From positions 1-64,000 of the forward strand of contig NZ_BBDM01000005.1 of NCBI RefSeq assembly GCF_001316245.1: a DNA stretch of 64,000 nucleotides. Reading direction: 5' to 3'. This document shows positions 13,157 to 20,163 of this stretch, piece by piece. How positions within the stretch are numbered: the first letter of the stretch is position 1; every line of letters begins with the position of its first letter. Under the pieces are notes generated by a model that saw nothing but the letters and a program-made list of their open reading frames with translations, was not told the DNA's origin and did no database searches. The translations under genes and the position numbers were made by a program. The stretch is from Vulcanisaeta sp. JCM 14467 (GTDB lineage Archaea > Thermoproteota > Thermoprotei > Thermoproteales > Thermocladiaceae).

Positions 13157-14926
13157 TCATTCCCTCACGATTAATTGAAGGCCCAGCGACTTAGCGATTT
13201 CCGTAATCGATGACCTCCTCGATATTGCATCATTAATAATCCTAATAACCTCACTTATACCAACCTAACCTGGGCCTTGGTATCCCTATCCCTAATCGTT
13301 ACTGTATTATCGACGGGCGTCTTATCATCTATCGTTATTGCGAAGGGCACACCTATGGAATCATACTTAGCGTACCTACTGCCTATCGTCCCATCATCAT
13401 CATAGACAGCCCTTATACCTGCTAGCGATAACTCCCTAAATATCCTCCTGCCTATGTTCACGTACTCCTGTTTCCTAATTATTGGTAGTACCACGGCCTT
13501 TATCGGCGCGATATCAGACGGAAGCTAAGCAGTGGCTTCCCACTAACCTCGGTGTATGCATGCTCTAGGGTTACGTAGACTATCCTATCAACACCGAAGG
13601 ATGGCTCAACATCGTGCGGAATAAACCTCTCGACATGCACCTTCCTCCTCTCCTCCTTAATAATTACCATGTCCTTCGTTACGGTATACCCATTAATGAC
13701 AGCACTACCCTTATCAGTTAATTCATTAACTAGCCACTTCACGTCAGCCCTTCCAATGGCTTGCATGACCTTAGGAGCATCACCACCAAAGACCTCCCTA
13801 ATCCTCTGCGGGTTCGGGTAAACCCTAACCTCAACAACCTCCTTGGGCGTGGTTAACCTCCTCTCAACCGTTAAGTCGTAACCGCTATACTTAGCGTGCC
13901 TACCGAGGTCGTAATCCGTCCTATAGGCATGACCACTAACCTCAACCCAACCAAACCTCTCGCTATAAACCATCTGGTCGAAGCTCGCGGCTGAATAGTG
14001 GGCCCTCTCCTCAGGTAGTTTAGCCAGGAAGTACTGATGATCAAGTGGTACACCGAGCTCGTTCATGTATATCGTGGCTAGCCCCATGAAGAACGCCATC
14101 CACTCATTAGGCACCACACCACTTTCCACAGCCTCCCTCGGCCTAAACTCCCTGGGCTCCTTAACGCCAGCAGCAACGTCCCTCTCAGGTATTATCCTTA
14201 ACTTAATATCCAACTCATCCAGATACGGGCACTTGGCATTTTCGGGGTCGAAGAAGAACTCAATCTCCATCTGTGTAAACTCCCTAAGCCTAATCAAGCC
14301 CTGCCTAGGCGATATCTCATTCCTACCAACTACCAATCTGGGCAATCCCCAGTGGTAACTTCCTACCATTAGGTTGAACACCTTTGGGAAGGATGCGAAC
14401 ATACCCTGGGCAGTCTCGGGCCTTAAGTAACCAATGTTATCACTGTAGGTCCTATCGTGGTCTGGAACAACAGGTTAAAGGGCCTAACACTACCCAACTC
14501 ACCACCACAGACTGGGCACCTAATGCTATACTTCCTAATTAAATTATCGAGCTCCTCAAGGCTCAAGCCCTCGGTCTTTATTGAAATACCCCTCTTACCA
14601 AGCTCCTCCTCTATTAAGTGATCGGCCCTATACTTACGGCCACACTTAGTACACTCAACGATCGCGTCCGTGAAGTGCTCAAGATGGCCGCTAGCCTCGA
14701 AGACTATTTTCGGCATTATTATTGGCGTCTCCACCTCAACTATGAAGTCCTGGTACGGGTAAATGAATACCCTACGCCACTTCTCAATAATATTCCTCTT
14801 CAGTTCAACACCGAGTGGTCCATAGTCATAGAAGCCGCCAACCTCGGCCTTACCCCTATAAATCTCGAAGCTTGGGTAGAAGAATCCATTCTCACTCATT
14901 AACTCCAGGAATTTCTCGAGATCCAT
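13157..14926 (-). CDS. glyS: Glycyl-tRNA synthetase, archaeal type (three frameshifts)
   Basis: Class II homodimeric GlyRS of about 589 residues, charging tRNA-Gly. The N-terminus has FEIYRGKAEVGGFYDYGPLG and a Cys-rich insert (CTKCGRKYRAD, CPVCGG). The middle has FTQMEIEFFFDP and RHAKYSGYDL, and the C-terminal part (VVLPIIRKQEYV, GSRYAKYDSIGVPFAI) is the anticodon-binding domain. Breaks occur near 14412, 13497 and 13258. After the last, the ending VGISEVIRIINDAISRRSSI...LIVRE leads to a TGA at 13157-13159. A TATA box (ATTATTTAAATAC, 14945-14957) about 26 bases before the ATG sits inside the end of the upstream agmatinase gene, so glyS is leaderless and independently transcribed. Confidence 0.95.
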
Positions 14927-16248: not shown

Positions 16249-16330
16249 CAAGGTCCATTAATGCTTACGTCACCCTTTTAAATCTTCATGGCTTAAGTAA
16301 ATAATATGCATGGATTACTTTACAAAAATC

Positions 16331-16340
16331 TATTTATAAG
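16331..16340 (+). promoter_or_regulatory. TATA box of the hairpin RNA
   Basis: TATTTATAAG is centred 25 bases before position 16361, where the hairpin begins. The oxidoreductase operon has its own box further downstream (16516-16527), so this one has no protein gene to serve. Assigned by spacing. Confidence 0.5.
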
Positions 16341-16360
16341 AAGATGATTAATTAGGATTT

Positions 16361-16450
16361 AGAGCCCATACCTGCCTGCACTCATGCCATTGGGCCCGGC
16401 CCGGCAATGCCGGGCTTGGTCCAGTGGCGTGGGTGCATGCAGGGGGCAAA
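16361..16450 (+). ncRNA. Candidate structured RNA: one near-continuous 39-pair hairpin
   Basis: Bases 16364-16447 fold into a single hairpin. A basal GCCC/GGGC helix and a 3-base bulge (AUA) are followed by 35 stacked positions (16371-16405 against 16409-16443) closed by a 3-base loop AAU. Only two of the 35 are mismatched, and five are G-U, so pairing is kept at RNA level rather than as exact DNA symmetry. A TATA box 25 bases upstream predicts a start at about 16360, and an AT-rich end follows. It has no C/D or ACA boxes, no tRNA shape and no RNase P or SRP motifs that I can find. A strong terminator or a mobile-element remnant are alternatives. Confidence 0.55.
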
Positions 16451-16515
16451 TTCTTGATTAAGTATCTATTTAGTTATTGGTTGTCATGCTCTATTTATGG
16501 GAATATAGAATAAAG

Positions 16516-16527
16516 GGTTTATAAAAG
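16516..16527 (+). promoter_or_regulatory. TATA box of the ferredoxin oxidoreductase operon
   Basis: GGTTTATAAAAG lies 28-39 bases before the ATG at 16555, predicting a 5' leader of under 15 bases. It separates the operon from the upstream hairpin, which therefore is not a leader element of the operon. Confidence 0.65.
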
Positions 16528-16554: not shown

Positions 16555-17115
16555 ATGAGCGCGTCAACTATCGAAATAACCTTCTTCGGGAGGGGTGGGC
16601 AGGGTGCCGTGACTGCTGCCCAAATTATTGCTCAGGCCGCCATTAGGCGTGGCTTATTTGCGAGTTCATTCCCTGAGTATGGCGCTGAGCGTAGGGGTGC
16701 GCCTGTCAGGGCGTATGTTAGGTTGTCTAGGGAACCCGTCCTTGCTAGGGAGCCCATTGAGAGACCGGATATTTCCGTGGTTTTTGATACGAGATTGCTG
16801 AGTGTTTTTAATATACCGCAGATAACGAAGAGTTACATAGTAATTAATGCGTTGAGTGTTGATGATGTGAGGAAGTCCGTAGGTAAGTTCAGTGGTAGGG
16901 TCATCTATGTGAATGCATATGAGATATCCACGAAGCACTTGGGTAAACCCATTGTTAATACCACGATGCTTGGTGCATTATTGAAGGTTCTTGATTTGGT
17001 GGATATAGAGACTGTTAAGGAGTTGGTCCTGGAAACCTTTGGTAAGAAGCTCGGTAAATCAAATGTGGATGCTCTGGAAGAGGCTTATAAAGTGGCTGAG
17101 GTGGTCGTGCTATGA
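16555..17115 (+). CDS. porG: 2-oxoacid:ferredoxin oxidoreductase, gamma subunit
   Basis: First gene of a four-gene operon encoding a cytoplasmic enzyme that converts a 2-oxoacid and CoA to acyl-CoA and CO2 while reducing ferredoxin. At 186 residues it is the usual size of the gamma subunit, with the family motif FFGRGGQGAVTAAQIIAQAA near the N-terminus and SFPEYGAERRGAPVRAYVR, then DISVVFD. The final ATGATGA overlaps the delta start. Pyruvate is the most likely substrate from the subunit order, but branched-chain or 2-oxoglutarate types are not excluded. Confidence 0.93.
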   Translation: MSASTIEITFFGRGGQGAVTAAQIIAQAAIRRGLFASSFPEYGAERRGAPVRAYVRLSREPVLAREPIERPDISVVFDTRLLSVFNIPQITKSYIVINALSVDDVRKSVGKFSGRVIYVNAYEISTKHLGKPIVNTTMLGALLKVLDLVDIETVKELVLETFGKKLGKSNVDALEEAYKVAEVVVL

Positions 17116-20062: not shown

Positions 20063-20163
20063 GCCGGGGTGGCCGAGCTAGGTCCAAGGCGCGGGACTCG
20101 AGATCAGTACAAGACATCCCGTCCCCGCAAGGGGCCCGGGTTCAAATCCCGGCCCCGGCACCA
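20063..20163 (+). tRNA. Class II tRNA with 13-base intron; anticodon reads CGA (Ser), some Leu features
   Basis: The acceptor arms GCCGGGG and CCCCGGC pair perfectly, followed by A73 and an encoded CCA. D-arm GCC/GGC, T-arm CCGGG-TTCAAAT-CCCGG and a long variable arm CCCC-GCAA-GGGG make it a class II tRNA. The anticodon stem CGGGA/TCCCG encloses 20 bases; removing 13 after position 37 leaves the loop CTCGAGA, anticodon CGA. But A73 and the AGGTC D-loop are more like archaeal tRNA-Leu than tRNA-Ser. I am sure of the tRNA, less of the isotype and exact intron ends. Confidence 0.85.

Follow-up and report, generated by a model that had tools for sequence, protein, structure and literature searches.

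Vulcanisaeta sp. JCM 14467 carries a long hairpin, here called RNA H, that on comparative sequence grounds is a previously unreported RNA gene of Vulcanisaeta-type hot-spring archaea. H lies in the window, the 64,000-nucleotide stretch of DNA analyzed here. A second small-RNA gene, A, lies on another contig of the same genome, and the two appear to form a trans pair whose complementarity is conserved by compensating changes between the two loci. Judging from these sequences and their predicted folds, we consider it fairly probable that A is a trans-encoded antisense regulator of H that works by strand displacement.

H is predicted to fold at positions 16364-16447 of the + strand. From foot to tip, the hairpin comprises 4 bp, an AUA bulge, 5 bp, a mismatch, 20 bp, a second mismatch, 8 bp, and a triloop, so that the stem holds 37 base pairs, five of them G-U, plus two single mismatches. 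A preliminary description of this DNA had the position and layout right; its count of 39 pairs included the two mismatches. A 101-nt segment containing H has a minimum free energy (MFE) of −76.1 kcal/mol versus −42.3 ± 4.1 for shuffled sequences (z = −8.2), with 0 of 200 shuffles as stable. Among the 3044 84-nt tiles of the window, the H tile is the most stable at −66.6, and the runner-up non-overlapping tile reaches −35.1. On the opposite strand, the 101-nt segment has an MFE of just −56.7. Because that strand folds so much worse, the G-U pairs favor an RNA read from the + strand.

H is present in most Vulcanisaeta genomes, as found by BLAST across 25 genomes of the taxonomic family, and covariance models locate it in Caldivirga-type genomes (G001-G004) and in a third genus, g4 (G011-G013). 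Searching 81 genomes of the class with covariance model R2 under strict filters yielded no H in those of Pyrobaculum/Thermoproteus type or in any more distantly related. At the sensitivity of the search used, H appears only in this family. Protein markers place it upstream of porG in nine Vulcanisaeta genomes and upstream of a phosphoribosyltransferase (PRTase) gene in eight; the element, expected in close relatives, is found there at orthologous positions. A tandem of A and H adjoins hppA in the four Caldivirga-type genomes and ilvD in three g4 genomes. The assemblies of several relatives are incomplete, among them G020, in which only A was found, and G023, in which only H was found; G005 (67% complete) yielded neither gene, and the window genome, G000, is 81.6% complete.

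Genomes often hold two or three H copies against one A, up to three of them near-identical. Within a genome the copies hardly differ, yet between species they do, which points to gene conversion. G000 has a second copy upstream of its phosphoribosyltransferase gene (L143, contig C16, about 1326-1400), an eroded remnant whose 3′ arm no longer matches A. The window copy is therefore the one intact H found in that genome, and it alone pairs with A. A third copy in G015 (L025, G015:C11:34732-34829) occupies a place that differs from both the por and the phosphoribosyltransferase loci.

The whole element, as matched by covariance models R1 and R2, which score it at 81.9 and 84.1 bits, spans 16360..16452 (+). 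Paired substitutions in the stem mark H as a putative structured non-coding RNA gene: across relatives, the alignment holds 13 double-change cells compared with 3.4 after shuffling (0 of 500 shuffles), and 93.1% of stem cells are paired, compared with 36-53% for slid partners. The residues invariant over three genera include GCC-A-ACC, with its A-N-A bulge, in the 5′ arm, and GGGGG in the 3′ arm. Fold, invariant columns and cofolds together place the 5′ arm at 16364..16395 (+), with the bulge read as AUA at 16368-16370. The apical half varies freely between species, and the apical hairpin (16396..16422, +) differs among them in sequence and length. Beyond it lies the 3′ arm segment TGGCGTGGGTGCATGCAGGGGGCA (16425..16448, +), complementary at 24 of 24 positions to the 5′ segment of RNA A. 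Caldivirga-type and g4 copies (L039, L041, L043, L132, L137) have UGAAA opposite AAGUAAA in mid-stem, an arrangement absent in Vulcanisaeta copies that, judged by eye, resembles a bulged-G (loop E / sarcin-ricin) motif.

H also appears to have its own promoter, consisting of a conserved TATA-like element followed by a divergent spacer. The BRE/TATA-like element CAAAAATCTATTTATAA occupies 16323..16339 (+), its TATA core TTTATAA lies at 16333-16339, about 25 nt 5′ of the hairpin foot, and the RNA is predicted to start near 16358-16363 (+). At the orthologous locus in relatives, AAAATCTATTTWA is kept upstream of the por-locus H copies, and the spacer to the hairpin diverges. The por operon has a separate TATA-like box in its sequence at 16518..16526 (+); porG starts at 16555 (POR domain). 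Both boxes had been noted in the preliminary description, which read the hairpin as an RNA gene with a promoter distinct from that of the next operon, and the relatives, the paired changes and por's own box support that reading. Since the neighbors of H are different in other genera and por is served by a promoter of its own, we rejected cis-regulation of por as a general function. The por-locus H copy of G023 (L009, G023:C12) has a promoter type otherwise typical of the phosphoribosyltransferase locus, which suggests a conversion that took in the promoter.

A search of G000 itself gave one other match: 24 nucleotides identical to the H 3′ arm, carried by the opposite strand of a different contig, C11, near 82980-83003, which lies outside the window. 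This match is the H-complementary segment of the A gene. In Vulcanisaeta, the A locus consists, in order, of the motif AACCAATACTAATAAATTAAT, a drifting spacer, the C-rich complement of the H arm, and a stem-loop; in 11 of the 11 Vulcanisaeta genomes with A, it has an 89-aa reading frame on one side and a metallophosphoesterase gene on the other. The promoter motif is conserved, and the stem-loop is retained though built from different sequences. In Caldivirga-type genomes, A sits about 130-210 nt upstream of H with the motif AACTGATAGTTTTAAATTAAT, and in three of these four genomes a run of T residues terminates the stem-loop. A is predicted to be a small RNA of about 60-65 nt, with a 5′ pairing segment and then a terminator-like stem-loop; beyond the promoter, it conserves just its complementarity to H and this stem-loop. 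The pairing segment is in effect a straightened H 5′ arm, without the bulge and with fewer G-U pairs. We infer that both RNAs are transcribed, and where they begin and end. Two genes that form a unit, encoding about 330 aa and 89 aa (L128:3911-5181, L135:2523-3766) and matching nothing in Pfam, adjoin A in Vulcanisaeta.

Cognate A and H are complementary over 20-29 bp, almost unbroken, in 17 genomes; in this count the G015 arm carried a surplus G, which leaves the fixed-column result below unaffected. Counted on 20 fixed columns in 14 genomes (a 13-row alignment, A3, was set aside because the aligner had shifted three divergent rows), the true partners are mismatched at 4 of 280 positions, with three of the four lying at the edge, and form 10 G-U pairs. 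Permuted partners average 62 mismatches with a minimum of 8, and none of 100,000 shuffles reaches the observed 4. When each of five clades is represented once, the true partnering ranks 1 of 120. The most telling cases are arms whose sequence was replaced outright, independently in two lineages. The divergent Vulcanisaeta genome G024 has the H arm GGCUGGGCACGCACGGGGGC and, at the syntenic spot (L135), a complementary A; G011 and G013 have the H arm GCGGAGCUACAUGGGGGG, and their A carries CCCCCAUGUAGCUCCGC. In these last two genomes, pairing within H has partly decayed and A:H pairing is intact, which argues that constraint on the intermolecular duplex is no weaker than on the hairpin.

With H copies subject to gene conversion, the genomes are not fully independent; we therefore give most weight to the comparison of five clades and to the arms that were replaced. 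Given such conversion, sequence exchange could in principle also help keep A matched to H; against this, A has about 24 nt of homology to H, and the differences are wobble-compatible. The G run of H and the C run of A are both longer (6-8 versus 4-5) in G015, G016 and G011 (L006, L024, L064, L086, L138).

In cofolds, A takes the H 3′ arm every time, and the 5′ arm (16364..16395) is the displaced strand, left single-stranded. Computed with standard 1 M salt parameters extrapolated in temperature, the A:H ddG at 37 °C is −5 to −25 kcal/mol, and at 75 °C it is −7 to −20 kcal/mol. Since A:H and H-only pairing exclude each other in these cofolds, H would have two states between which A chooses. The H 3′ arm would pair either with its own bulged, G-U-rich 5′ arm or with A, whose 5′ segment complements it perfectly or departs from it by wobble pairs only. 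Once made, A would invade the H stem from its G-rich 3′ end, displace the 5′ arm and open the lower stem, and this binding would switch H off or activate it. An effector, probably a protein, would then read the invariant GCC-A-ACC and bulge, or the freed 5′ strand. We cast A as the regulator and H as the effector RNA because the invariant residues of H are not explained by A, and A conserves little besides complementarity. That displacement takes place in the cell, that A regulates and that an effector reads H, we likewise infer. Neither an mRNA nor a protein target came to light. A two-state switch in which a protein reads the freed strand or the duplex, making A and H a regulatory RNP class new in archaea, is a plausible extension that we hold tentatively.

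The roles could also be reversed, with H a sponge that titrates A, and A a regulatory RNA that pairs with mRNAs through its 5′ segment. A does have the minimal layout of a regulatory RNA, a 5′ seed and then a terminator, and is often faced by two or three H copies. We nevertheless consider this unlikely: A has no conserved feature beyond its complementarity to H, no other extended complement appears at BLAST level in 25 genomes, and the GCC-A-ACC and bulge of H are invariant without pairing to A. A bacterial counterpart, the trans-encoded sRNA with its sponge or antisense regulator, likewise joins two non-coding RNAs from separate loci, one of which opens with a pairing segment and continues into a terminator stem-loop. 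A and H differ from it in a duplex of 20-29 nearly unbroken bp, much longer than typical seeds, and in being archaeal and conserved over genera, with no known mRNA target or Hfq dependence.

If A and H were instead one stable two-part RNP scaffold, as are tracrRNA/crRNA and U4/U6, they would not be regulator and target at all. Their long, strictly kept intermolecular duplex, which excludes an alternative stem internal to H, and the stem-loop retained beside it despite changed sequence are features of such scaffolds, which also have hairpins next to the duplex. This arrangement is nonetheless quite improbable, since no partner protein gene is linked, the neighbors being ordinary metabolic genes that differ by genus, and little sequence is conserved outside the duplex and the H 5′ element. 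Nor do A and H come with the cas or spliceosomal gene, guide or spacer of those systems.

Antisense regulation of H by A, our preferred reading, also has to be set against explanations without RNA pairing. The 24-nt matches might be a shared DNA site, for protein binding or recombination, kept by gene conversion, and the H copies within one genome are indeed homogenized. We regard this as very improbable: the A/H deviations are of wobble type (10 G-U versus 4 mismatches, three at the edge), the match is always preceded by a TATA-like motif and followed by a stem-loop in one orientation, and the H 5′ arm pairs through G-U pairs and bulges, not by DNA symmetry. We give almost no credence to the view that H is a MITE, an insertion-element end or a similar small element, mobile or palindromic, and A its fragment, as up to three near-identical copies per genome and the half-hairpin look of A might suggest, because synteny and covariation refute it as the main explanation: H copies occupy orthologous places across the genus, the differences in A are almost all G-U compatible, A co-varies with H after complete sequence change and has a promoter more conserved than its surroundings, no adjacent transposase is among the neighbors seen, and no match to an insertion-element end, which the preliminary description had kept in view, appeared.

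As had been surmised, H appears to fit no known archaeal RNA class: in Rfam 15, searched with the window and its relatives, only tRNAs reach the gathering threshold, and the best sub-threshold matches are generic long hairpins, such as mir-9243 and mir-8515, far below gathering. One tRNA gene of the window (20063-20160, +) is 98 bp, longer than usual, and probably contains an intron. On the − strand, at 13255-14926, what looks like a glycyl-tRNA synthetase gene, identified by reading its sequence, is split by frameshifts or assembly errors into three frames (14423-14926, 13500-14402 and 13255-13494), the first two of which have no Pfam hit.

With its imperfect hairpin of about 35 bp and a nearly perfect complement elsewhere, the pair recalls a eukaryotic pre-miRNA, unlike which it lacks the machinery: PF02171 (Piwi, Argonaute) and PF00636 (RNase III) were found in 0 of 7 genomes, in a search run with positive controls, and a microRNA-like system was rejected. 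Of the 'processing or antisense role' once suggested for H, the antisense half came close to the mark, since 24 nt of its 3′ arm can pair with the product of another small-RNA gene, and the processing half finds no support, as neither RNase III nor Argonaute was found. Plasmid and type I toxin-antitoxin pairs (RNAI/RNAII, hok/sok) similarly join a structured RNA to a fully complementary second RNA; A and H, unlike them, are encoded apart and not on opposite strands of one locus, and have no reading frame or replicon near them. No linked protein gene points to a CRISPR-like or toxin-antitoxin system.

H is not SRP RNA or a fragment of it, as a separate Archaea_SRP match is present in four genomes; in the two genomes examined, SRP RNA and either H or A share no complement longer than 8 nt. 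With regard to an rRNA partner or an rRNA-directed guide RNA (C/D or H/ACA), the longest exact complement to the rRNA region of V. distributa is 10 nt, on the antisense strand, box motifs having been judged by eye only. A splicing-endonuclease (bulge-helix-bulge) substrate was rejected since none of the folds has the second 3-nt bulge that the opposite strand should carry. So was a viral origin, the one 17-nt match in a viral contig having no surrounding hairpin and being taken as chance. The openly licensed papers searched include none that describes small RNAs from these genera.

To our knowledge, conserved trans-acting RNA regulation is poorly known in Crenarchaeota, and covariation evidence exists for few RNA-RNA interactions in archaea. 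In two lineages the paired sequences have been replaced entirely, and A and H still match without a break over at least 20 bp, which is direct evidence that selection acts, at about 80 °C, on a duplex between two RNA molecules. Cultured species carry both genes, which are short and exactly mapped, and the claim is therefore testable. If the switch reading is true, A and H would be a chromosomal non-coding RNA pair conserved for the lifetime of a hyperthermophile family.
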